IMG/VR virus record: IMGVR_UViG_3300001460_003769
Coordinates: 8,630 to 31,021 of that record
DNA: 22,392 bases
From: a virus
Strand: one strand, 5' to 3'
Shown: positions 5,738 through 20,728 of the stretch, one piece after another
Position numbering within the stretch: position 1 is the first letter of the stretch
How the letters are laid out: each line of letters opens with the position of its first letter
The notes under the pieces: model-generated
The model's database searches: none
Seen by the model: only the letters and a program-made list of their open reading frames with translations
Told to the model about the DNA's origin: nothing
Program-made: the position numbers and the translations under genes

Positions 5738-6809
5738 AAAAGTTCCAGACTACCTCAAGGACACCGTAAAGAAGTACGGAGAAATAATCAAGAAGGGTAA
5801 CAAAGTCCTTGAAGAAAAAGGAGACTATGGAATTATCTCAATTAGTCCCGCTCTGGACGTTGGCTTGGGTGGTGGAGTAAGGGAGGGTTGCTGGCTAACC
5901 TTGACAGGAGACCCGAAATCCGGCAAGACTACGACCGCAATGCAAATAGCGGCTAACTGCATAGAAGAAGGCAGAAAAGTTATTTACATTGACGCTGAGG
6001 GTAGATTAAAAGATTTGAATTTTCAAGTAGTAGGACTCGACCCTTCAGACATGGACATTATAGCCCCTGTGGACAAGCCTCTGTCTGCCGAGCTACTGCT
6101 TGAAACGGCCTATAAAATGCTTTGCGATCCAGATTATCACCGAGCTATATTGATCATAGATTCTATATCTTCATTGATTTCAGAAAAAGAGTTGGATGGG
6201 GATTTTTCTCCAAGAAGAGCGGGTCTACCTAAGATACTTTCTGTTTTCACAAAAAAGGTTGGTCAGTTGCTTCCTAGTCAAAGGGGTTTGATTATTGCGA
6301 TTACGCACTATATCTCTAACACTTCTGGTTTTGGAAAGTCTAAAATGTCAGACGGTGGAGTTAAGATTCAATACCAAGCTGACACGAGGTTGGAGATTGC
6401 ACATGGCGGCGAAGGCAACCCTGCCGTAAAAGCCGTAGTGGATGACAATGGTAATCAAGTGGGTCAAAAAATTAATTGGCGTGTAGTTTGCTCTTCTATG
6501 GGGCCGCCGGGAGGAAATATTCAAAGCCATATTCGCTACGGTCACGGAATTGACAAAACTCAGGAAGTTCTCGATCTATGTTTAGACTTGGGGCTAATTG
6601 AACAAAGAGGTGCTTGGTTTAACTGCTTGTTTATGGCAGACATGAAAAAGGTTGCCAAAGAGATAAAGCCAGAAGTAGACCTTGATAATGCTGAAGAGTT
6701 TGAAAAAAGTTTTAAATATCAAGGAATGAGAAATTTGAGGACTTTGTTTGATGAAAACCCAAAGTTAGTTAAAAGTTTAGAAAAGCTAATTAAAGAGAGT
6801 TTACTTTAA
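5715..6809 (+). CDS. recA: RecA/UvsX-like recombinase
   Basis: This is an ATP-dependent strand-exchange protein for recombination-dependent replication and repair. The 364 residues carry Walker A GDPKSGKT (65-72), a beta strand with catalytic-type glutamate in YIDAEG (91-96), Walker B ILIID (145-149) and a late strand LIIAITHYIS in the position where RecA proteins carry a conserved Gln/His region. A lysine-rich N-terminus precedes the core. The start ATG 5715 overlaps the upstream gene; the stop shares one base with the next ATG (TAATG). It is closer to phage RecA/UvsX forms than to host RecA in its divergence. The family call is secure. Confidence 0.9.
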   Translation: MTTKTKSKKVPDYLKDTVKKYGEIIKKGNKVLEEKGDYGIISISPALDVGLGGGVREGCWLTLTGDPKSGKTTTAMQIAANCIEEGRKVIYIDAEGRLKDLNFQVVGLDPSDMDIIAPVDKPLSAELLLETAYKMLCDPDYHRAILIIDSISSLISEKELDGDFSPRRAGLPKILSVFTKKVGQLLPSQRGLIIAITHYISNTSGFGKSKMSDGGVKIQYQADTRLEIAHGGEGNPAVKAVVDDNGNQVGQKINWRVVCSSMGPPGGNIQSHIRYGHGIDKTQEVLDLCLDLGLIEQRGAWFNCLFMADMKKVAKEIKPEVDLDNAEEFEKSFKYQGMRNLRTLFDENPKLVKSLEKLIKESLL

Positions 6810-7207
6810 TGAAAGTGCTGGGACTTGACGATAAGTACTATAACTGGAATCCAAAGTCAAACAAAGGCAAGCGATCAAAACTTCACAATAAAGTTAGAAA
6901 ATTCCTTGACAAGTGTTTCCCGCATGATAGAATACTGGAAGAAGTAACTCTGGCTGGTACTAAAAAGCCCTCGTCCTTCGGGGGTCTTCTTCGTGCTGAC
7001 TTTTGGTTGCCACTAAGGTCTATAATAGTTGAAGCTAATGGAGAGCAGCACTTTAAATTTAACTCTTTTCACTTTAAAAGAAAGTTAGATTTTTTTCGTG
7101 CTCAAGCCAGAGACAGAGACAAGGCGTATTGGTGTGAGATAAACGATATAAAGTTAGTTAATTTGAACTTTAACGAAACCGAAGAAGAGTGGAGAGAAAA
7201 AATATGA
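6809..7207 (+). CDS. VSR/DUF559-like nuclease (PD-(D/E)XK fold)
   Basis: This is probably a small endonuclease of the restriction-endonuclease fold. The key signature is LRADFWLP (D64), followed by a strand ending IIVEANGEQHF (E75, then G78, Q80, H81), and later WCEINDIKLVNL. The D...E..G.QH layout is typical of VSR-like and DUF559 proteins. A basic N-terminal region (NKGKRSKLHNKVRKFL) could bind DNA. Located directly after recA by a TAATG overlap, it may process recombination or mismatch intermediates or degrade host DNA. The fold is fairly sure; the substrate is unknown. Confidence 0.65.
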   Translation: MKVLGLDDKYYNWNPKSNKGKRSKLHNKVRKFLDKCFPHDRILEEVTLAGTKKPSSFGGLLRADFWLPLRSIIVEANGEQHFKFNSFHFKRKLDFFRAQARDRDKAYWCEINDIKLVNLNFNETEEEWREKI

Positions 7208-9565: not shown

Positions 9566-10658
9566 AATTTGCGAAGAATTACTAGAGCAGCTACCTGAGT
9601 TTTTGACTCACATGGATATTGATTTTATTGAGTACCCTAATAGAATTGCATTTCCTTGTCCAGTTCATGGGGGTGACAATCCAGAGGCTTGTTGCATATT
9701 TACGGATGGCAATTCAGCTAAGGGAAATTGGCATTGCTGGACTAGGCACTGCGAAGAAGAGTTTTCAGGCTCTTTGATTGGCCTTGTTCGTGGATGGATG
9801 GAGAGAAACGGGTGCGAAGAAAATTCGTTCCATAAGGCTCTTAAATTTTGTTGCGATTTTCTAAAAATGGATGTGGCAAAAGTAGAAGAATCTAACTATG
9901 ACAAGGGTAGAGTTAATCAAGTGTTTAAAATATTTAACGAAGAAAGTTTAACTGACTCGACCCCTACTATATCTAGAGATTTGATCAGGGGAAAACTTGA
10001 AATTCCTTCAGTGTACTACCTAAACAACAAAGACGAACGTAAAAGGTTTTCGGCTGAAGCATTGGACACTTTTGATATTGGTGACTGCAAGGATTCTAAA
10101 CAGTCAATGTTTGGGCGGGTGGTAGTTCCAATATACGATGAACATTGTAATTACTCTGGTTGCGTTGGCAGGACTAAAACTGAAGTTTCGAAGTCAAACC
10201 CAAAATGGAGAAACAGTAAAGGCTTTTCTAAGTCCGCTAATCTATACGGGTTTAACATTGCATCAGAGTATATATTAAGCTCTGGAACAGTTATATTGGT
10301 TGAAGGCCAATCAGACGTTTGGAGGCTTTACGAGTCTGGGCTTGCTATGTCTGTAGGGATTTTTGGAAGCTCTTTGTCGGACAAGCAGCTAATAGTACTA
10401 GAAAAATCAGGAGCTTTCAACGTTGTGATATTGACTGACTACGATGAAGCTGGTGATACAGCCTACAAAGATATAGTCAATAAATGCGGAAGAAGATTTA
10501 ACTATATTAGACCAAACTTAAAAGACTGGTTTAAGTCTACAGGGCTACCCCAGAGCGAGTGGGATGTGGGCAGCATGACAGTTCAAGAAATTAAAAATGA
10601 AATTTATCCATCACTAAAAGGAATAATCAATGACGAACATTATAGCGTTTGCGGGTAA
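9534..10658 (+). CDS. dnaG: DnaG-like primase (zinc finger plus Toprim)
   Basis: This enzyme makes RNA primers for DNA synthesis. The N-terminal zinc finger appears as CPVHGG (C42, H45) and NWHCWTRHC (C68, C73). The Toprim catalytic core appears as ILVEGQSD (E257) and LTDYDEAG (D302, D304). At 374 residues it is much shorter than bacterial DnaG (about 580), lacking the helicase-binding C-terminal region of the host form, as is common in phages. ATG 9534 overlaps the helicase by 32 bases; GGAAGG lies about 12 bases upstream. The adjacency of helicase and primase genes supports a shared primosome. The family call is secure. Confidence 0.88.
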   Translation: MKSLTQKQISKICEELLEQLPEFLTHMDIDFIEYPNRIAFPCPVHGGDNPEACCIFTDGNSAKGNWHCWTRHCEEEFSGSLIGLVRGWMERNGCEENSFHKALKFCCDFLKMDVAKVEESNYDKGRVNQVFKIFNEESLTDSTPTISRDLIRGKLEIPSVYYLNNKDERKRFSAEALDTFDIGDCKDSKQSMFGRVVVPIYDEHCNYSGCVGRTKTEVSKSNPKWRNSKGFSKSANLYGFNIASEYILSSGTVILVEGQSDVWRLYESGLAMSVGIFGSSLSDKQLIVLEKSGAFNVVILTDYDEAGDTAYKDIVNKCGRRFNYIRPNLKDWFKSTGLPQSEWDVGSMTVQEIKNEIYPSLKGIINDEHYSVCG

Positions 10659-11436
10659 GAAGCAGTCTGGTAAAAGCACATGTGCGAACTTCCTACACGG
10701 ATACCAGATGAGAGCACAAGGAATCATTAGCGATTTTGGGTTGAGCAAAGAAGGAAAGCTGCTCGTTCAAACAGAGGACATGAAAAGTGAAAAAGAAATA
10801 GAGCAAAAACTTGCCATGATCGACGTTAATCGAAAGGACTACGAATTTGCGGAATGGGCAGCTTATAGCATGTGGCCCTTTATCAAGAATTATTCTTTTG
10901 CTGAACCTCTCAAGCAATTGGTTCTTAATCTTTTTAACGTACCCGAAGAGTGTTTGTACGGGACTGGCGAACAGAAAAAACAAAAACAAGAACATTTGCG
11001 GTGGGAGAACATGCCAAAATCAAAAACTAAATTCGGCAAGAAAAAGGGGTTAATGACCGCCCGCGAGTTTTTACAGTTTTTGGGCACAGACATCATGCGT
11101 AACATGTACAAAGATATCTGGACTAAATACTGCATTGACAGCATTGAGTCTGAAGAATCTCTAATCGCAACAATTGACGACGTTCGATTTTTAAATGAAC
11201 TAGAAGCCATTCAAAAGGTTGGGGGAAAAGTTATTTACTTAAATCGAAATGAAGGCTCTAAGGACAGCCATTCTTCGGAAAATGAGTTGGGTAATCATCT
11301 GGATAAATTTGACGCAGTTATTGATAATTCGGGCTTGTCAATTCTAGACACGAGCATGGAAGTTATGAAGTTCATTGAGAAATGGGGATGGCTTGAGGAA
11401 AATGTATCCATAACAGCAAACCAAGAAAGCAAATAA
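10630..11436 (+). CDS. Deoxynucleoside monophosphate kinase, T4 gp1-like
   Basis: This enzyme probably phosphorylates dNMPs to dNDPs, feeding DNA synthesis. The start MTNIIAFAGKKQSGKST gives Walker A GKKQSGKST (9-17). Family landmarks visible are AEPLKQLV, the REFLQFLGTDIMR segment, IATIDDVRFLNE and VIYLNRN in order, as in T4 gp1-type kinases. The 268 residues fit the family. ATG 10630 overlaps the primase by 29 bases with AAAAGGA about 8 bases upstream. The opposed deoxyribonucleotidase at 295 suggests the phage tunes its nucleotide pools in both directions. The exact dNMP specificity cannot be read from the sequence. Confidence 0.8.
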   Translation: MTNIIAFAGKKQSGKSTCANFLHGYQMRAQGIISDFGLSKEGKLLVQTEDMKSEKEIEQKLAMIDVNRKDYEFAEWAAYSMWPFIKNYSFAEPLKQLVLNLFNVPEECLYGTGEQKKQKQEHLRWENMPKSKTKFGKKKGLMTAREFLQFLGTDIMRNMYKDIWTKYCIDSIESEESLIATIDDVRFLNELEAIQKVGGKVIYLNRNEGSKDSHSSENELGNHLDKFDAVIDNSGLSILDTSMEVMKFIEKWGWLEENVSITANQESK

Positions 11437-12476
11437 TGATAGTAACATACATCAGAAGTTCGTCGTATAATAATTACGACTTTTGCCAAATGCAGTATTT
11501 TCTAACCTATGTTTTAGGTTGGCGATCCAATAGCGGCAAGAAAGCAGATATGGGAACTATGGCTCATAAGGTTATGGAAATTTTGGCTGGCCTAAAAAAA
11601 TTCCAACAAGATAACCCAAGAAAGAAATATCTAGTTGTAAATGACGACAAGTGTGGTAAAATAAGAGAACATAAAGACAAGCTCCATACGGGTGAGCTAG
11701 TTGATAAGTTGACAGAAAAGGCTATAGGTGATTACGCAAAGGGTTCGCGACATAAATTTTACCGCAAGGAAAGAGCAGAAATTAGGCAGACCGTAGAAAC
11801 TTTTTTAACTTGGAATGATGGTCAGTTTGACCCAAGATTGAGAAATATTTATTACCCAGAGCCTCACTTTGATATACCAATCGAAGAAGAATGGGCTAAG
11901 TTTGATTTTATTGACGCACAAGGCACTCAACAGAAGGGACAACTGGCGATTAAGGGCACTATTGACCTTGTAACGTTAGTTAACAAAGATACAATCGAAG
12001 TTGTTGACTGGAAAAGTGGTCGTCGTTTAGACTGGGCGACAGGAGAAGAAAAGACGTATGAAAAGATGCAGAATGACCCACAGTTATTGCTTTACTTTTA
12101 CGCGATGTCTAAAATGTTTCCAGACTTTAAATACAGAATTATGAGCATCTTCTTTTACAAGGACACAGAAGGCAACCCAGACCCAGTACCTTACAGTTTT
12201 TGCTTTGATGAAAGTGACGAAGAAAGGTTTTTAAACATGCTCAAAAACAGAGTGGGGGAAATTAAAGATAACCTTTCTCCAAAGCCTGTTGACCCTACTC
12301 GGAGAGACCCAAAATGTAAGTACTTGTGTCATTTTTATAAAAATAAGTTTGAAGGTGAAAGCTCTTGCATGTGCAAGTCTGTAGAGCAATCACTTAAAGA
12401 AGATGGAATGGATGTTGTTTTAGAAAAATATACTGCACCTGATTTCAATATTGGTTTTTACGAGGCTCCCGGATAA
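11436..12476 (+). CDS. Cas4/AddB-like PD-(D/E)XK nuclease with probable Fe-S cluster
   Basis: This protein is probably an exonuclease acting in recombination-linked DNA processing. The RecB-type nuclease core shows H44 (GTMAHKVME), D177 (KGTIDLV), D191 and K193 (EVVDWKSG) and Q216 with Y220 (QLLLYFYAM), the classic order for the RecB/Cas4 family. Cysteines bracket this core: C17 in YDFCQMQY and C294, C298, C311, C313 near the C-terminus, the arrangement that holds a [4Fe-4S] cluster in Cas4 and AddB. The TAATG overlap couples it to the kinase. No cas1, cas2 or CRISPR is near, so a CRISPR role is unlikely. The nuclease family is sure; the cluster is inferred. Confidence 0.82.
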   Translation: MIVTYIRSSSYNNYDFCQMQYFLTYVLGWRSNSGKKADMGTMAHKVMEILAGLKKFQQDNPRKKYLVVNDDKCGKIREHKDKLHTGELVDKLTEKAIGDYAKGSRHKFYRKERAEIRQTVETFLTWNDGQFDPRLRNIYYPEPHFDIPIEEEWAKFDFIDAQGTQQKGQLAIKGTIDLVTLVNKDTIEVVDWKSGRRLDWATGEEKTYEKMQNDPQLLLYFYAMSKMFPDFKYRIMSIFFYKDTEGNPDPVPYSFCFDESDEERFLNMLKNRVGEIKDNLSPKPVDPTRRDPKCKYLCHFYKNKFEGESSCMCKSVEQSLKEDGMDVVLEKYTAPDFNIGFYEAPG

Positions 12477-12490
12477 TATTAAGGTAGAAA

Positions 12491-14125
12491 ATGAGCGAAT
12501 ATACTCCACTAAATGTCAAAACTGACTACAGCATCCAGAAAGGATTTTGTCAATGCGACAATATTGCAAAGAGATGCAAGGAAAATGGCTATCAAGCATG
12601 TGCAATTAACGATATCGAGAACGTGTCGGGCGTGCCAGCTTTTCACAAGGCTTGCAAGGACAACGGAATCAAGCCAATAATTGGTTGCGATTTCAATGAC
12701 TTCTCTTTGTTTGCTAAAAACAAGCAGGGTTATTTTGAGTTGATTCAGTTTACTTCAGATTTTCAATCAGAAAATTTTAAAAAGCTAGACAGCTTAAAGA
12801 TTATGGCATCCAAAAACAATATTGCGTGTGTGGTTTTTAGAGACTGTCAGTCTGATAAACCCAAGGACAATCTGTCAAACGTTTTAAGTAAGATGTTTAA
12901 AAGCAACTTTCATGAAATCGTAGAGACTGGAACATACTATGTTGACGAAACTGATGCGGAAGCTCACAGAGTTATGATTCTTTCTGGGATGAAAACTAAC
13001 TTTAAAAAGATGAGATCAATCAACAAGGAAAGATGGGAAGAGTCTAACAATCAAAGGTTTTTTGATTCTAGTAATTTTTACTTAGGGGCAAATACACAGG
13101 AAGATCAGTTTAGTAAAATATCTAAAATTGTTGAATCCTGCGAAGACTATGAAATCACAGCAAAGCCCATGCTTCCAGAATTTAAATGTCCAGACGGAAT
13201 GTCTCAGGATGATTACCTTAAACAATTATGCAGAGAAGGCTGGGCATCTAAGTTGACTCCTGATGTTTTAAGCACAGAAAAAATCAAGCGGGCTTATCTT
13301 GATAGAGTACAGTCAGAAATGAGTGTTATATTTAACGCTGAACTGTCAGGTTATTTTTTAATCGTTCAAGATATTGTTAGATACGTTAGGGAAAGAGGTT
13401 GGATTGTTGGCCCCGGAAGGGGTTCTGCTGCGGGTTCGCTAGTATCATACCTTATAGGAATTACTAATGTAGACCCAATCAAGAACGATCTTTTGTTTGA
13501 AAGATTCTATAACGAGGGTAGAAACACCAAAGATAATATTTCCTTGCCAGATATTGACTTGGACGTTCCTCCTTCTCACAGGGATGAAGTTATTGATTAC
13601 ATCAAGAGCCTGTTTGGGGAAGATAAAGTGGCACAGGTGATTACTTTTGGTAGACTTCAGGGAAAGTCAGCACTAAAAGAATCTCTGCGTGTGTGTGGCT
13701 CTGTGGGTTTCTCAGAGATGAATGAAATCACAGATCAGATTCCAGAAACTCAAGAAATTTCAGACAAGATTTCTGCTTCTGGAGAAAGCTCAGTTATTAT
13801 GTGGGCTTTAAAAAACAACCCAGACAATTTAAAGTCTTGGTGTTTTATTAACAGCGATGACGAACTTCAAGGTGGTTTGTCTCACGAGTTTGATTTAGCG
13901 ATTAAGCTAGAGGGGGCGATCAAGAGTAAAAGCACCCACGCTTGTGGTGTCGTTATATCAAAAAACAAACTGAGTGATATATGTCCGGTAATTGATAATA
14001 AATCTGGTGATCCAGTGGCGGCATTTGAAATGCAAGATTTAGAAAGCCAAGGGCATGTTAAGTTTGATATTCTAGGTTTAAATGTTTTAACTAAAATTAT
14101 GGAGATTTGCGATGAAAGTTATTAG
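12491..14125 (+). CDS. dnaE: DNA polymerase III alpha subunit, N-terminal half
   Basis: This gene encodes the first half of a C-family replicative polymerase. Residues 1-70 match the start of the PHP domain (TDYSI, GIKPIIGCDF) but the metal-binding His-x-His is lost (NVKTDYS). The palm follows: GPGRGSAAGS (about 308-317), LPDIDLD with D354 and D356, and VKFDILGL with D526. These three acids correspond to E. coli D401, D403 and D555. The protein stops 18 residues after D526, where full-length proteins continue directly to the fingers. The rest of the enzyme is encoded at 15045. The start has AAGGT 7 bases ahead. No intein motif is present at the end. Confidence 0.92.
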   Translation: MSEYTPLNVKTDYSIQKGFCQCDNIAKRCKENGYQACAINDIENVSGVPAFHKACKDNGIKPIIGCDFNDFSLFAKNKQGYFELIQFTSDFQSENFKKLDSLKIMASKNNIACVVFRDCQSDKPKDNLSNVLSKMFKSNFHEIVETGTYYVDETDAEAHRVMILSGMKTNFKKMRSINKERWEESNNQRFFDSSNFYLGANTQEDQFSKISKIVESCEDYEITAKPMLPEFKCPDGMSQDDYLKQLCREGWASKLTPDVLSTEKIKRAYLDRVQSEMSVIFNAELSGYFLIVQDIVRYVRERGWIVGPGRGSAAGSLVSYLIGITNVDPIKNDLLFERFYNEGRNTKDNISLPDIDLDVPPSHRDEVIDYIKSLFGEDKVAQVITFGRLQGKSALKESLRVCGSVGFSEMNEITDQIPETQEISDKISASGESSVIMWALKNNPDNLKSWCFINSDDELQGGLSHEFDLAIKLEGAIKSKSTHACGVVISKNKLSDICPVIDNKSGDPVAAFEMQDLESQGHVKFDILGLNVLTKIMEICDESY

Positions 14126-14342
14126 CGGCAAAGAAGACATTATGTCTGTTGTTTATCACGGGTATTCCGTTGTCAATAGAAAGGGTGCATCTATATGCAA
14201 CTTGGAGGATGTTATAATGGGGAATTACACTCCCAAGGGTAAATACCAAGTTTGGTGTGAAAAAGAAAAGGTTTACGAATTGTTCCAAGACTTAGGTGAT
14301 GCTACAGATTTATTTATAAAAATTTCAAAAAAGGGTGGCTAA
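14112..14342 (+). CDS. Unknown 76-aa protein inside the split polymerase locus
   Basis: I do not recognise this protein. It has a beta-rich first half (SVVYHGYSVVNRKG, GNYTPKGKYQVWC), a short helix (EKEKVYELFQDLG) and a lysine-rich end. No enzyme motif is visible, and it does not resemble an intein or homing endonuclease. ATG 14112 overlaps the end of the polymerase N-half by 14 bases in another frame, so re-initiation after that stop is likely. The exonuclease start follows its stop by one base. Its position between polymerase half and proofreader suggests a holoenzyme accessory, but that is guesswork. Its length equals that of E. coli theta, but the sequence does not match. Confidence 0.6.
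   Translation: MKVISGKEDIMSVVYHGYSVVNRKGASICNLEDVIMGNYTPKGKYQVWCEKEKVYELFQDLGDATDLFIKISKKGG
14331..14338 (+). promoter_or_regulatory. Ribosome binding site for the exonuclease ATG 14344
   Basis: AAGGGTGG lies about 6-10 bases upstream of ATG 14344. It supports that ATG over the in-frame GTG at 14335, which would place the ribosome site inside the coding region and add only three residues. Confidence 0.5.
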
Positions 14343-14343
14343 T

Positions 14344-15036
14344 ATGAATTATCGTGATATAATTGTTTTTGACTTTGAGACCACAGGAAGAAACGCAGAA
14401 AAGTGTCAACCCACTCAAATTGCTGCCGTAGCTATCCATGCAAGAAAGCTCAAGATTCAGCCTAACGGCATTTTCGAAAGTACCATGAGGTGCATAACTA
14501 ATGATGATAAAGCTATTGCCGCTGGTTTTGACCCAATCGAGGAAGGTGCTCTAGAAGTAACAAAAAGAACTAGAGCTAGTCTTGCTAAAGGGCCAATGCC
14601 AAAGACTGTGTGGAAAAACTTCGCTAAGTTTTGCGATCAGTTTAACTTCAAGAAAACTCCTTGGTATGCACCAATAGCTGCGGGTTACAATATTAATGGG
14701 TTCGATATGAAGATCGTAGACAGGCTTTGTCAAGAGTACGGCCCAACAAGCGATAAAAATGGGGAGCAAAAAATATTCCACCCAATTCACAAAATCGACT
14801 TGATGCAGCATATTTACTGCTGGTTTGAAAATCACGCCGAAGTAAATAAGTATAACATGGATTATCTAAGAGAGTACTTTGGTATGCCTAACGAAAACGC
14901 ACATGATGCGTTGCAAGACGTAAAAGATACTGCGAATATTCTAATTAGATTTTTAAAGCTCCAAAGAAATATTATTGACAACAATAAGGTTCAATTCAAG
15001 AACGCATTTGCTAACGGAAATTTTGATATAACTTAG
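14344..15036 (+). CDS. dnaQ: DEDDh 3'-5' exonuclease (DnaQ/epsilon-like)
   Basis: This is the probable proofreading subunit. Exo I is FDFETTG (D10, E12), Exo II is in GYNINGFDMKI (D121) and Exo III is HDALQDVKDT (H187, D192), giving the DEDDh set. The 230 residues match the epsilon subunit in length. I chose ATG 14344 because a good ribosome site precedes it. The gene lies between the two polymerase halves, which in most bacteria are one protein with epsilon encoded elsewhere. A dedicated beta-clamp motif is not obvious to me. An RNase T-type or other DEDDh role is possible, but the context argues for proofreading. Confidence 0.88.
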   Translation: MNYRDIIVFDFETTGRNAEKCQPTQIAAVAIHARKLKIQPNGIFESTMRCITNDDKAIAAGFDPIEEGALEVTKRTRASLAKGPMPKTVWKNFAKFCDQFNFKKTPWYAPIAAGYNINGFDMKIVDRLCQEYGPTSDKNGEQKIFHPIHKIDLMQHIYCWFENHAEVNKYNMDYLREYFGMPNENAHDALQDVKDTANILIRFLKLQRNIIDNNKVQFKNAFANGNFDIT

Positions 15037-15040
15037 AGGT
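15035..15040 (+). promoter_or_regulatory. Ribosome binding site for the polymerase C-half
   Basis: AGAGGT lies 4 bases before the GTG at 15045. It shows that the second polymerase half has its own translation start rather than being reached by frameshift or read-through from the first half. Confidence 0.6.
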
Positions 15041-15044
15041 TAAC

Positions 15045-16673
15045 GTGAACGATTTTAATATTAATGATTTTGATGACAAATTAACTTGGGATTTAATCAG
15101 CGAAGGAAGAACCAAGGGCGTATTTCAACTTGAAAGTCAGCTTGGTTCCAGTTGGGCTAAAAAGGTTAAACCTAGAAGTATTACAGAGTTATCGGCTTTG
15201 ATTTCCTTGATTAGACCGGGATGCTTGAAGGCTATCATGGATGGCAAGTCTATGACTCAAACCTATGTTGACAGAAAGTCAGGCAAGGAACCCTCTAAGT
15301 ACCATCATCCGTCCTTGGAGTCTACCCTTTCAGAGACTTATGGTGTTTTGGTTTACCAAGAACAGTCCATGATGATAGCCAAGGTTTTATCTGGCTTCGA
15401 CTTGAAAGAAGCTGACAACCTAAGAAAAGCGATTGGTAAAAAGAAAGCCAAGTTGATGCTTGAAGTTAAAGAAAGGTTTATCTCTGGTGCTGGAGAGCAA
15501 GGCATTGTCTCGGAAGAAATAGCTGAAGAAATTTTTTCTTGGATTGAAAAATCAAGTAGATACGCATTTAATAAATCTCATGGCATTGCTTACGCTGTTA
15601 ATACATACCAAAGTGCTTACTGCAAGGCTCATAGGCCGTTGAAATTTTTTGAGGTTTATTTAAATCACGCAAAAGATAGCGATGACGTAAAAGAATTTGT
15701 TATGGATGCTAAGAATCACAGTATTGAAGTTTATCCCCCTTCGCTTTCAAGGTTGTTCCCTGACTTTACTATGGATAAGGATAAGAGTGTTATTTATTTT
15801 GGTATTTCTAACGCTAAAAATGTTTCTGCGGTAGATGTGCAGGTCATAGAAAAGCTAGGTAAAACAAAAGATATTCCTTCTTTTACTTGGCTTGACTGTT
15901 TATTTACGTTTGGCGGGGTTAAACAAGGTGAAAAGCTAGGCAAAAGAACTATTGAGTCACTGATTTCAATTGGTGCGTTTAATGGCAAAAACAATAAAAC
16001 GCAAAGAAATAAAATGCTTTATGAATACGGGGTGTGGAACTCTTTATCTGCATCAATCAAAAAGCACATTGCTAATTTGTACAAACATTACTCTGGGGCG
16101 TTTGATGATTTACACGCTTGGATTTCATTAGCACTAGAATATAAATACGTTTCTATCAAAGATTCGTCAGAATATCAATACATAGCAAAAGAATGTGATG
16201 GGGGCAGGATAATCGTTCAACCCAAAAAGGTTTCAGAATTACTTGATTTAGTCGAGTCTTTGAAAAACCCCCCTTACTCGACAGAGGATCACGCTTGGAC
16301 TATAGCGAACTTAGAAAATAGAATAATTGGATGCTCTTTAACTTGCAGTGTGGTAGATGGTTCAATAAAATCAAATTTAGCAAAAAATATGTGCAAAGAT
16401 GTACATAATAGTACTATAATTGGTAAAACTTCTATTGCTGTTTCTATAGCCTCAGTAAGAGAGTATGAAACAAAAAAGGGTAAAAATGCCGGAAGCATTA
16501 TGGCGTTTTTGTCAGTTGAAGACAGCAGTGGGTCTTTAGATGTTACTGCCTTCCCAGAGGATTATAGCAAGAACAAAAACTTGCTGACTGAAGGAAACAC
16601 GGTTCTTATAAACGGAACAGTGTCCAGTAGAGATGGTAACTCCCTTATATTGAATAAAGTTTCACAAATTTGA
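15045..16673 (+). CDS. dnaE: DNA polymerase III alpha subunit, C-terminal half
   Basis: The protein continues the polymerase where the N-half ends: DKLTWDLISEGRTKGVFQLES matches the segment that follows the FDFLGL strand in DnaE. Further landmarks are LSALISLIRPG, YGVLVYQEQ, LRKAIGKKK and SSRYAFNKSHGIAYA of the fingers, a helix-hairpin-helix region (LGKRTIESLISIGAFNG) and a terminal OB fold (about residues 462-542). The tau-binding C-terminal domain of E. coli DnaE is absent. The 542 residues plus 544 of the N-half add to about the size of a normal DnaE (1,160 in E. coli). The YAFNKSH site used by cyanobacterial split inteins is uninterrupted here. Start GTG 15045. Confidence 0.92.
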   Translation: MNDFNINDFDDKLTWDLISEGRTKGVFQLESQLGSSWAKKVKPRSITELSALISLIRPGCLKAIMDGKSMTQTYVDRKSGKEPSKYHHPSLESTLSETYGVLVYQEQSMMIAKVLSGFDLKEADNLRKAIGKKKAKLMLEVKERFISGAGEQGIVSEEIAEEIFSWIEKSSRYAFNKSHGIAYAVNTYQSAYCKAHRPLKFFEVYLNHAKDSDDVKEFVMDAKNHSIEVYPPSLSRLFPDFTMDKDKSVIYFGISNAKNVSAVDVQVIEKLGKTKDIPSFTWLDCLFTFGGVKQGEKLGKRTIESLISIGAFNGKNNKTQRNKMLYEYGVWNSLSASIKKHIANLYKHYSGAFDDLHAWISLALEYKYVSIKDSSEYQYIAKECDGGRIIVQPKKVSELLDLVESLKNPPYSTEDHAWTIANLENRIIGCSLTCSVVDGSIKSNLAKNMCKDVHNSTIIGKTSIAVSIASVREYETKKGKNAGSIMAFLSVEDSSGSLDVTAFPEDYSKNKNLLTEGNTVLINGTVSSRDGNSLILNKVSQI

Positions 16674-16682
16674 AAGGTTTTT

Positions 16683-17000
16683 ATGAATAATTGTAGTTTT
16701 TTGGGTTTGGTTTCGAACGAAATCGACCTACATGAAGAAAATGGTGTCCCAGTCGTAAACTTCGAGCTAGAAATAGAAGAGTTTAGAAGGTCGTCTGGTG
16801 GAGAGAAAAAGAGAAATGTAACCTATGTAGAGCTTGAGGCTTGGGATTCTGCTGCCCTTGCTATTCAAAAATATGCAAAAGCGGGAACTTTGATGGCCGT
16901 AGAGTCTGTTGCACGCAACGACCACGTTCAATTACATGGCAATGGAGAAGAGTCGCCAGTGACATACTTCCGAGTTACAAGTTTCAAAATAATTCACTAG
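16683..17000 (+). CDS. ssb: Single-stranded DNA-binding protein, OB fold
   Basis: This protein probably coats ssDNA at the fork. The 105 residues follow the SSB pattern: an opening strand NCSFLGLVSNEIDL, then VVNFELEIEEFRR, a basic hairpin (GGEKKRNVTYVELEAW), AALAIQKYAKAGTLMAVE and a last strand TYFRVTSFKIIH. It lacks the disordered linker and acidic tip (DDDIPF type) that most bacterial SSBs use to dock partner proteins. GAAAGG lies upstream of ATG 16683. It closes the replication module. A PriB-like role is possible, but the context favours SSB. Confidence 0.75.
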   Translation: MNNCSFLGLVSNEIDLHEENGVPVVNFELEIEEFRRSSGGEKKRNVTYVELEAWDSAALAIQKYAKAGTLMAVESVARNDHVQLHGNGEESPVTYFRVTSFKIIH

Positions 17001-17008
17001 GATCAGCC

Positions 17009-18658
17009 ATGAGAAAAACCAAGATATTATTCGTTACAGAGTTTAGCGAGTTAAGCACAGGGTATTCCGTTTACACAAAAAATGTACTTGGCTACTTGTC
17101 TAAAGTCCCTCACTTTGAAGTGGCCGAATTATCCTGCTACGTAGACAGAAACAATCAAGCGATCAAGAACGTGCCGTGGAAAGTATATCCCAACAAGCCG
17201 TTAAAAGAGGACGCTGAATTTGCTGCTTACTCTGGGAATCCAGCATCTCAGTTTGGCGATCAGACTTTCAATGCTGTTTTGCTAGATTTTCAGCCAGATG
17301 TAGTCATGGATATTCGAGATTGGTGGATGTTCGAATTTGAGCAAAGGTCTCCATTTAGAGACTTTTTCCACTGGTCTATCATGCCAACGGTTGACGCTCA
17401 ACCTCAAGACCCTCAATGGGTAAACACTTACGCTTCTGCTGATTCAGTTTTTACATATTCTGAATTTGGTAGAGACGTACTGCAAAGCCAGTGTGACGAT
17501 ATTAAGTTTATTGATATAGCATCTCCATCGGCAGACCCCGAAATTTTCAAGCCGCTAAATAAGCACGAGCATAAAGAATCCCTTGGTATGTCTGGGGATT
17601 CTTTTATAATCGGCACAGTTATGAGGAACCAGAAAAGAAAGCTATACCCAGATTTATTTGCGTCATTTAGAAAAATACTAGACAAAACGCACAGAGATGA
17701 TGTATTTCTGTATTGCCATACATACTACCCAGATATCGGATGGGATATCCCAAGTTTGTTAAATGATTACAATCTGTCAAGTAGAGTGCTGTTTACATAC
17801 AAATGTAAAACCTGTGGTGCAATTACTACTGACTTTTTTAACGATGGCGTTCAAGTCTGCAAAAAGTGTGGAAACTTTACCAATCAACTCGCTGGCATCT
17901 CAAATAGCATAGACTCCAATCAGTTGGCTGGAATCTATAACCTATTTGACGTTTACGTTCAGTACGCAAACAGCGAAGGTTTTGGTATGCCTCAACTAGA
18001 AGCTGCGTATTGTGGACTACCTGTTGTTTCGATTAACTATTCGGCAATGGAGTCTGTCATTAAAAACATTGACGGAATTCCAATTCAGCCTTTATCGTTT
18101 TACAAGGAATGTGAAACTGGTTGTGATAGGGCGATACCAGACAACGAACAGTTTATTGAAGTTATGACAAACTTGATTAGACTAGGCAAGCAGGGTAATG
18201 CAAAGCGTGGACTTGAGATTAGAGGAAACGCTTTGAAAGTGTATAGCTGGAAGGAAACAGCAGAAAAGTGGAAGTCTCACTTTGAAAAAATACAGCTAAC
18301 ACCAATAGAAAGCACTTGGCTATCTCCACCGAAAATCTTTCAGCCTGCTAGACAGATACCGGAAAACATAGTATCTGTTTTAGATAAGGTTAACTTTTTG
18401 TTTACTGACGTTCTTCACAAGCCGGAATGGATAGGAAGTTTCTTTTGGAGAAAAGTTATAAAGGATTGCACGTTTGGATATAAATGCCAAAATCTCAGCA
18501 AAGACTTTTACTTTAATGAGTCACACAACAAAAGTCACGGAAGTATGCAGCCGTTTTCAATTGATCAAGCACTAGAAGAAATGATTAACTTTAGGAATCA
18601 GTTAAATGGCTGGGAGTCAGCCAGACACCAATCAAACCAAAGGAAGTTCTCACAATGA
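17009..18658 (+). CDS. GT-B glycosyltransferase (GT4-like) with inserted zinc ribbon
   Basis: This is a probable sugar transferase using a nucleotide-activated donor. The start resembles a Rossmann domain (KILFVTEFSELSTGYSVYTKN). The C-terminal domain carries the GT4 EX7E motif, E323 and E331 in SEGFGMPQLEAAYCGLPVVS. Between the two is a four-cysteine zinc ribbon, C266/C269 and C284/C287 (YKCKTCG, VCKKCGN), which GT4 enzymes do not normally have. An extra region of about 150 residues follows the core (residues 400-549). I chose ATG 17009 because an earlier start at 16841 would run through ssb in another frame. The family is secure; donor and acceptor are unknown. Confidence 0.85.
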   Translation: MRKTKILFVTEFSELSTGYSVYTKNVLGYLSKVPHFEVAELSCYVDRNNQAIKNVPWKVYPNKPLKEDAEFAAYSGNPASQFGDQTFNAVLLDFQPDVVMDIRDWWMFEFEQRSPFRDFFHWSIMPTVDAQPQDPQWVNTYASADSVFTYSEFGRDVLQSQCDDIKFIDIASPSADPEIFKPLNKHEHKESLGMSGDSFIIGTVMRNQKRKLYPDLFASFRKILDKTHRDDVFLYCHTYYPDIGWDIPSLLNDYNLSSRVLFTYKCKTCGAITTDFFNDGVQVCKKCGNFTNQLAGISNSIDSNQLAGIYNLFDVYVQYANSEGFGMPQLEAAYCGLPVVSINYSAMESVIKNIDGIPIQPLSFYKECETGCDRAIPDNEQFIEVMTNLIRLGKQGNAKRGLEIRGNALKVYSWKETAEKWKSHFEKIQLTPIESTWLSPPKIFQPARQIPENIVSVLDKVNFLFTDVLHKPEWIGSFFWRKVIKDCTFGYKCQNLSKDFYFNESHNKSHGSMQPFSIDQALEEMINFRNQLNGWESARHQSNQRKFSQ

Positions 18659-19755
18659 AAGTTTTGTATATAGGAAATTACAATGACGGCACTGGCTGGG
18701 GAAACGCAGCAAGGGCCAATATTCTATCCTTATCAATGGCAGACGGAGTTAAGGTTTACCCTAAAGGCATAACATTCAACGGTAGCTACGAAACTAAAAA
18801 CGAGGCTTTGCTTCTGCTACAAGCCAAAAATGGTAAACTTGACGGCTCTCCAGATGTTTGTATTCAACACACGCTTCCGAATCTTTATAGCTATGATAGT
18901 AGATATAAAAATATTGGAGTGTTTTATTTTGAGGCCAACTCTGTTCCAATCGAGTGGATCAAACAGCTAAATATGATGGACGAGCTTTGGGTTGCTACGA
19001 ACAAAAACCGTAGAGATGCAATCGCCAGCGGCGTAACTACACCCATCAAGGTTGTCCCAATACCTCTTGACGCAGACAAAATATTGTACCTATCTGGAAT
19101 GGGTGGAAAAATAGATAGAATGGTTGATCGTTTTAACTTCGGGTTCGTAGGTGAGTTTGTAGAAAGAAAAAATTTAAAAGCACTTTTAAGAGCCTTTCAT
19201 GCAGAGTTTGACCCAAGCGAGCCTGTTAACTTATTTATAAAAACATCTGGCGTAGATATAGATACCTTGAAGCAGTACGCAAATCAAATCAAAGCGGGCT
19301 TAAAAATTAGAAACCGCTACATTGAAGAAATTTTCGTAGCAGGCATGATGGAAGAAAAAGATTACTATGGCGTTTTATCTCAGTGTAATTGCTTGGTAGT
19401 TCCAAGTAGAGCAGAAGGATGGTGCATCCCAGCTTGGGAGGCTATGGCTTTAAATATCCCTGTTATATCAGCAGAGGGAACAGAGTTAATACCTCACGAA
19501 AACGAACTAATGAAGTTTGTTCCGTCAAGGGTCGAGCCTTGTTTTGGTGCGTTGGACACTATGCCGTTTTTGCAGACAGCACATCAAACTTGGAATGAAA
19601 TCGACGTTACAGAACTGAGAAAAGCTATGAGAGAACGGTACGAAACCCCAATAGAAAAAGCGGATTCTAGCTGGCACGCCCTACTTAGCTTACAATCTGT
19701 GGGCAATGCAATGAAAGAAAACATTGAAAACTTACTAAAGGGAAAAAATGTATAA
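18655..19755 (+). CDS. GT-B glycosyltransferase, GT4-like
   Basis: A 366-residue sugar transferase. The N-terminal domain opens with VLYIGNYNDGTGWGNAAR, a glycine-rich nucleotide or acceptor loop. The strand FNFGFVGEFVERKNLKALL is typical of the linker into the donor domain, and the EX7E motif is present as E254 and E262 in RAEGWCIPAWEAMALNIPVIS. ATG 18655 overlaps the previous stop (ATGA), so the two enzymes are translationally coupled and may act in sequence. Substrates cannot be read from the sequence. Confidence 0.85.
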   Translation: MKVLYIGNYNDGTGWGNAARANILSLSMADGVKVYPKGITFNGSYETKNEALLLLQAKNGKLDGSPDVCIQHTLPNLYSYDSRYKNIGVFYFEANSVPIEWIKQLNMMDELWVATNKNRRDAIASGVTTPIKVVPIPLDADKILYLSGMGGKIDRMVDRFNFGFVGEFVERKNLKALLRAFHAEFDPSEPVNLFIKTSGVDIDTLKQYANQIKAGLKIRNRYIEEIFVAGMMEEKDYYGVLSQCNCLVVPSRAEGWCIPAWEAMALNIPVISAEGTELIPHENELMKFVPSRVEPCFGALDTMPFLQTAHQTWNEIDVTELRKAMRERYETPIEKADSSWHALLSLQSVGNAMKENIENLLKGKNV

Positions 19756-20728
19756 CGCAACACATGAAACAATTAGCTCTTACATGTTTCGCAAAGATTT
19801 GAGCGAGTTGAATATTTTGACATTCGCTACTCACGAGCGATATGAGCAAGGACTTTGTAAAACTGGTCACAATTTTTACTCCTTGGATATAGGCGGTAAA
19901 ACTTGGGATACTGAATACGGGGAAGTTCCTAGTAACTACCATCAAATTAAAATGATTCCCAACACTCTAAAGATTGATTTGATTTTAGCTCAACACCAAA
20001 GCCATATGCCTGCCGCTATGGAAATATCTAAAAACTTTGGAGCACCCGTAATTCTTTTAACGCATATTTTACCACAGCCAAATTCGAATGAAAACTTGGA
20101 AATGTTTAAATGGCCTAATTCAAATGTTTTTATATCAAATTACAGCAAGAACGAATGGGGTGTTGATCCCTTTGCTAAAGTTATCGAGCATGGAATTGAT
20201 GTAGGGTTTTGGGGCGAGGAAGTTGGTGCGGCCAAAAAACCTCACTGTATTTCAGTGGTAAACGAATTTCCTACAAGAGATTGGTGTTGTGGTTTTAATT
20301 TGTGGCGTGCGATTAGCGAGAGCGTGCCGTGTGGGGTTGTTGGAAAATGCACATCTCACCCCAACTTCTCAAGTGCCGCTGAATCTAAAGGGCATCTAAG
20401 ATTTCTGTACCAAGAAGCGTCTCTTTACCTGAACACCTCTTTAGTCTCGCCCGTTCCAACTTCAATGCTAGAGGCTATGGCGTGCGGGCTACCGATTGTT
20501 TCAACCAACAACTGCATGATCCCAGAGATTATCGAACATGGCGTAAATGGATATCTAAGCAACGATCCAAATGAGCTAATATCTTTTTGTGCAGAGTTAT
20601 TGCAAGATGAAGACAAAGCTCAACAGATGGGCTTAAAAGCGAAGGAAACGGTAAATAAATGCTTCAACATGGAGAGATTTGTAAGCGATTGGAATTTACA
20701 CTTTAAAGAAATTGTCACCAAAAACTAA
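19748..20728 (+). CDS. GT-B glycosyltransferase, GT4-like, with altered EX7E
   Basis: This is a third GT-B protein, of 326 residues, slightly short for the family. The C-terminal domain has LVSPVPTSMLEAMACGLPIVST and PEIIEHGVNGYL, the classic GT4 end. The first Glu of EX7E is replaced by Ser while the second Glu is kept, which occurs in some GT4 members. The strand KIDLILAQHQSHMPAAMEI suggests an acceptor-side domain. It overlaps the previous gene by 8 bases. It is probably active, but with the altered motif a non-catalytic partner role for one of the neighbours remains possible. Confidence 0.8.
   Translation: MYNATHETISSYMFRKDLSELNILTFATHERYEQGLCKTGHNFYSLDIGGKTWDTEYGEVPSNYHQIKMIPNTLKIDLILAQHQSHMPAAMEISKNFGAPVILLTHILPQPNSNENLEMFKWPNSNVFISNYSKNEWGVDPFAKVIEHGIDVGFWGEEVGAAKKPHCISVVNEFPTRDWCCGFNLWRAISESVPCGVVGKCTSHPNFSSAAESKGHLRFLYQEASLYLNTSLVSPVPTSMLEAMACGLPIVSTNNCMIPEIIEHGVNGYLSNDPNELISFCAELLQDEDKAQQMGLKAKETVNKCFNMERFVSDWNLHFKEIVTKN

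Follow-up and report, generated by a model that had tools for sequence, protein, structure and literature searches.

The catalytic core of a replicative DNA polymerase is usually a single chain. In the E. coli Pol III core, the epsilon subunit docks on the PHP domain of alpha and not at the palm-fingers junction. In cyanobacterial DnaE (Ssp/Npu), the break lies in the fingers, at Y^CFN, and a split intein ligates the two parts. A different arrangement has been described for the group 2.2 jumbo phages, in which a minimal PolIII alpha catalytic core is distributed over two proteins, from which the enzyme is proposed to be reassembled (Iyer et al. 2021, PMC7824862). Those phages encode the two parts at distant loci, divided so that NTP binding falls to one protein and Mg2+/template binding to the other; their PolIII lacks PHP and its other domains, and a PolB is present (PMC7824862). 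Fractured genes with split inteins are also known (Dassa et al. 2009, as cited in PMC10448857).

The phage genome fragment analyzed here, henceforth referred to as the window, comprises 22,392 nucleotides (bases 8630-31021 of a 31-kb virus record) and encodes a PolIII alpha in two genes. The locus very probably represents a clade of uncultured tailed phages whose C-family replicase is built from two non-covalently assembled chains together with a DEDDh proofreader from the same operon.

Results

All open reading frames of the original prediction were found in the window at the positions it had given, with a 76-aa protein and a DEDDh exonuclease lying between the two polymerase halves. The N half (12491..14125, + strand; 544 aa) begins with ATG at 12491, ends at 14125 and contains a PHP domain that has lost its metal ligands, followed by the palm/thumb (PF02811, PF07733). 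Its end overlaps by 14 nt with the gene for the conserved 76-aa protein, X76 (14112..14342, + strand). The DEDDh 3'-5' exonuclease, a proofreader of 230 aa (14344..15036, + strand; PF00929, phrog_192 ‘DNA polymerase exonuclease subunit’), begins with ATG at 14344. The C half (15045..16673, + strand; 542 aa), which contains fingers, HhH and OB domains (PF17657, HHH_6, PF01336), begins with GTG at 15045, ends at 16673 and is read in a different frame from the N half. Two flanking genes are co-conserved in order, a PD-(D/E)XK (Cas4-like) exonuclease upstream (11436..12476, + strand; PF12705) and SSB as the next gene downstream (16683..17000, + strand; PF00436). The ribosome site originally assigned to the C half is present in the window as a Shine-Dalgarno-like AGAGG (15035..15039, + strand) located 5 nt upstream of the GTG, but a stretch of this kind is obvious in only 45 of 102 relatives; among the others, C overlaps the upstream gene in some. 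Three glycosyltransferase-like genes in a row (17009-20728; phrog_2170) lie directly 3' of the replication module, and a small ORF matching homing-endonuclease PHROGs (559, 9084) adjoins the RecA gene at 6809-7207.

The N half aligns to residues 5-565 of E. coli DnaE in the PDB alignment. It carries the PHP and Pol3 palm of a C-family DNA polymerase, and its D354, D356 and D526 correspond to E. coli D401, D403 and D555. D526 is the third catalytic aspartate, as first proposed, and the chain stops 18 residues further on. The equivalents of all three residues are invariant in 97 of 97 aligned homologues, and the GPGRGS loop is kept in 96-97 of the 97. L059 and most members of the L005 clade retain intact PHP metal ligands, whereas those of the remaining clades, and of the window with them, are degenerate. 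Since the ligands are lost in most lineages and the DEDDh residues are conserved throughout, proofreading is most likely performed by the separate exonuclease.

The C half, aligned to solved structures, covers E. coli DnaE residues 590-889 plus the OB fold and so picks up where the N half leaves off, in agreement with the original prediction. The fingers, HhH and OB domains of a C-family polymerase are therefore all present on a separate chain, and the motifs of the C half are invariant. An AF2 model of the C half (pLDDT 88, pTM 0.80) matches DnaE structures over its full length (Foldseek prob 1.00, E 5e-22), and the chain is predicted to fold on its own as DnaE fingers-HhH-OB. No tau-binding C-terminal domain was detected in the C half of the window.

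The two halves are complementary on DnaE without overlap (N = 5-565, C = 590 onward), so the palm and fingers are separated by the cut, which corresponds to a position between ~565 and 590 in E. coli numbering. The linker at this position is variable in single-chain relatives, E. coli included, and the cut falls inside it: the N stop lies ~10-30 residues past the palm and the C start directly before the fingers. A single polypeptide is the usual, if not strictly defining, form of a DnaE-type PolIII alpha, and among these relatives it was found in one fused lineage as opposed to 102 split loci. Neither half in the window gave a match to an intein family. The break carries no IntN or IntC of the cyanobacterial type and does not lie at Y^CFNKSH; the corresponding YAFNKSH is intact at residue 173 of the C half. 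The absence of an intein from the window, with this motif whole, had been correctly noted, and the observation is refined here by the presence of a split intein in some relatives.

In L056, L058, L059, L060, L062 and L082, the C half is broken by a split intein at FN(K/R)^SH (e.g. L058 4094-5440), four residues past the cyanobacterial DnaE site. A free-standing endonuclease lies between IntN and IntC, with NUMOD3+DUF559 in the two tested. These polymerases consist of three ORFs, except in L059/L060, where N continues in frame into the first part of C; in the three-ORF polymerases one junction is probably spliced and the other not. L145 carries an in-frame HNH intein in its C half at RPG^C (10322-12679; Intein_splicing PF14890 + HNH_2).

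Relatives were collected from IMG/VR scans, and loci were counted after duplicate removal. The original prediction had proposed a search for the same gene order, and that order, N-(X76)-exo-C, proved to be shared by 102 distinct loci in which N and C are always separate ORFs. Because the set of other genes between the halves varies from locus to locus, the N-C gap spans 681-2311 nt, and in seven of the 102 loci the N end overlaps the start of the exonuclease gene. An independent assembly, the 152-kb GenBank contig L194 from a SAR202 MAG, has the order N-exo-HNH-C-SSB. Overall identity is ~50%, and the catalytic residues do not vary. The pairwise distances measured for N track those for C (r = 0.89), as expected of any co-inherited neighbours. 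The arrangement was absent from the cultured-phage places inspected, where the best matches were ~30% identical and were mostly single-chain polymerases. MAG contigs give weak hints that SAR202 and Flavobacteriales are hosts. A tail sheath was not found, and in a search for a T4-type portal none of the controls gave a signal. In the deep-clade locus L005, a cytidylyltransferase-like gene (12544-12969; PF01467) lies between exo and C.

The exonuclease gene lies between N and C in 102/102 split loci, and DEDDh residues are kept in 98-100% of 103 homologues, which identifies the protein as DnaQ/epsilon-type. Its position between the halves is not strict, as it is found upstream of the fused polymerase in L059. 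A C-terminal KFxxAF-type tail (~14985-15010 in the window) is conserved in all clades and is a candidate docking motif for the polymerase or a clamp. A similarity search of cultured phages with the exonuclease returned only six distant matches. Bacteroides phage DAC19, whose exonuclease is 28% alike, was considered as a carrier of a split polymerase and rejected, the neighbours of its exonuclease being terminase, ligase and helicase.

X76 was represented in an alignment of 54 sequences and was predicted by AF2 to fold as a-b-b-b-b-a (pLDDT 78). It had no Pfam/PHROG match, and a search for fold relatives gave no convincing PDB or BFVD match. The protein is present only in the main clade and in L059/L158 and is missing from the L005, L052 and L140 split clades. 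X76 is accessory and not required for splitting; a role as an obligatory bridge was rejected on account of the three split clades that lack it. A relationship to E. coli theta, which is also 76 aa, was likewise rejected: theta is all-helical, and X76 is predicted alpha/beta with no fold match.

A tree of concatenated N + C was rooted on E. coli and Acinetobacter DnaE. All loci cut at the palm/fingers site grouped together (UFBoot 99). Nested within this split clade (UFBoot 92-100) are L059 and L060, one sequence on two contigs, with the order X76-exo-[N+C in one frame]. N and C are joined there exactly at the site where the others are cut, with the junction ILSKIDKIAKYANIDLDNWEDVETWRLL in place of LLSKIMEIC..stop / M.FDINNF.D..VWDLI. 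Constraining L059 outside the split clade cost 45.7 log units and was rejected (p-AU 0.017). Given the nesting and the rejection of an outside placement, L059/L060 is read as a natural re-fusion, and one split followed by one re-fusion looks like the simplest account of the tree. By segment, both C parts of L059 were placed with the main clade (0.93-0.94) and its PHP above the L005 clade (0.89); the palm, at 0.44, gave weak support for nesting. The PHP of L059 is intact and longer, in contrast to that of its tree neighbours (L140 and the main clades), which is short and degenerate. Because L059 keeps what these neighbours have lost, its N part could derive partly from recombination, or the PHP could have decayed several times. 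L158 is a partial relative of L059 with the same X76-exo-N order. In L157 (4271-6264), another relative of L059, the break in the N half falls within the palm (profile ~405-411), at the split site of Cbastvirus and Jayan.

Other replication genes in the window specify a DnaB-type helicase, a Toprim primase-like protein, SSB and RecA, and the polymerase genes stay with this module across the clade. Searches run with positive controls detected no PolA or PolB in 14 related records (79-158 kb), which may be incomplete. As no other such polymerase appeared in these large relatives, the split enzyme is probably the replicase of these phages. The beta clamp and the delta-prime/clamp-loader families were also not found in the 14 records, and processivity factors are probably borrowed from the host or unrecognised.

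Discussion

The original proposal of a split PolIII alpha with no intein joining its parts is upheld. The halves very likely constitute one enzyme, given the conserved gene order, intact motifs, complementary domains, lack of another detected polymerase and the natural fusion; that they do so non-covalently, along with physical assembly, polymerase activity, exonuclease docking and the role of X76, is what we infer. The N chain would bring the degenerate PHP and the complete catalytic palm/thumb, and the C chain would bring the fingers, HhH and OB. The two may bind each other by the palm-fingers and domain contacts that DnaE uses natively, giving one active polymerase, and the same-operon exonuclease would proofread, probably docked on the PHP-containing N chain by analogy with epsilon.

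It is very improbable that the halves are instead joined covalently by an unrecognised trans-splicing intron, unusual intein or recoding event. The same gene does host mobile splicing elements, namely the split inteins and the HNH intein of L145, but there is no room for an intein half between the palm end and the fingers start, no Rfam intron was found in the window or in 7 relatives, C begins at a start codon of its own and the intervening DNA, 681 to 2311 nt, is coding. An assembly error or a decaying pseudogene has practically no probability. The source is a metagenomic contig and nothing more specific points in that direction, whereas the break is common to 102 distinct loci and to the independent assembly L194, and the invariant catalytic residues are not those of a decaying gene; the relatives refute an assembly error outright. 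A one-chain relative, which the original prediction had regarded as a possible sign of such an error, does occur once, but it is secondary by the tree and so supports a joint function of the halves.

It is improbable that N and C depend on the exonuclease, alone or together with X76, as a structural bridge between them, a role of the exonuclease that the original prediction had raised. The constant location of its gene between the halves and the conserved KFxxAF tail are consistent with bridging, as is the conservation of X76 in the main clade. Epsilon in E. coli, however, binds the PHP region and not the palm-fingers junction, the split clades without X76 show that this protein is dispensable, and the exonuclease is retained beside the fused L059 polymerase, so that proofreading alone explains its presence. 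There is also little likelihood that the split protein is an accessory polymerase of a phage relying on the host replicase. The lack of a detected phage clamp or clamp-loader family, which may be host-derived or unrecognised, would fit such dependence, but the window carries a dedicated module of helicase, primase-like protein, SSB and RecA, and the polymerase genes are kept with that module across the clade.

Beyond the two-chain replicase itself, we consider it fairly probable that this form is ancestral, an obligate heterodimer (or heterotrimer with the exonuclease) since the origin of the clade that has been re-fused at least once. If true, nature would have split a replicase and rejoined it, an experiment carried out without splicing. 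The comparison with other phages shows that phage PolIII alpha was divided on at least two occasions, each at a different site in the chain, and suggests that such splitting is reversible. With palm and fingers on different chains across a diverse phage clade, independent assembly and cycling of these modules can be tested directly, and a natural split DNA polymerase that needs no intein may serve engineering.

The locus resembles the E. coli Pol III core in domain order, catalytic residues and a separate DEDDh proofreader; the E. coli core differs in having one alpha chain, a tau-binding C-terminal domain and theta. Single-chain phage DnaE (Moorella MTATph1, Gordonia RedWattleHog) is likewise similar in domain order and catalytic residues but has one alpha chain. 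Like the cyanobacterial enzyme, this is a replicative DnaE in two genes; the window is cut ~170 residues further upstream and has no intein. The IntN / free-standing endonuclease / IntC arrangement inside the C half of some relatives resembles the fractured genes of Dassa et al. 2009, as cited in PMC10448857; that FN(K/R)^SH break is independent of the palm/fingers cut, and the window is without it. Unlike the jumbo-phage minimal PolIII (Iyer et al. 2021), the window keeps PHP, is cut between palm and fingers with all three aspartates on N, and has adjacent genes in one operon with the proofreader between them and no PolB found. Cbastvirus (Cellulophaga phi13:1, Tenacibaculum Larrie) and Bacillus phage Jayan are alike in having two neighbouring ORFs annotated as polymerase III alpha. 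Their cut lies inside the palm before PDxDxD (profile position ~405-409), as in all known phage splits that could be mapped here, with no exonuclease gene between the ORFs, and they stand on separate tree branches from the palm/fingers-split clade. The palm/fingers cut, the proofreader between the halves, the clade-wide fixation and the re-fusion were not encountered in the literature searched, which left most subscription journals outside. Splitting of phage PolIII alpha is already known; this site, gene order and fixation appear to be new.
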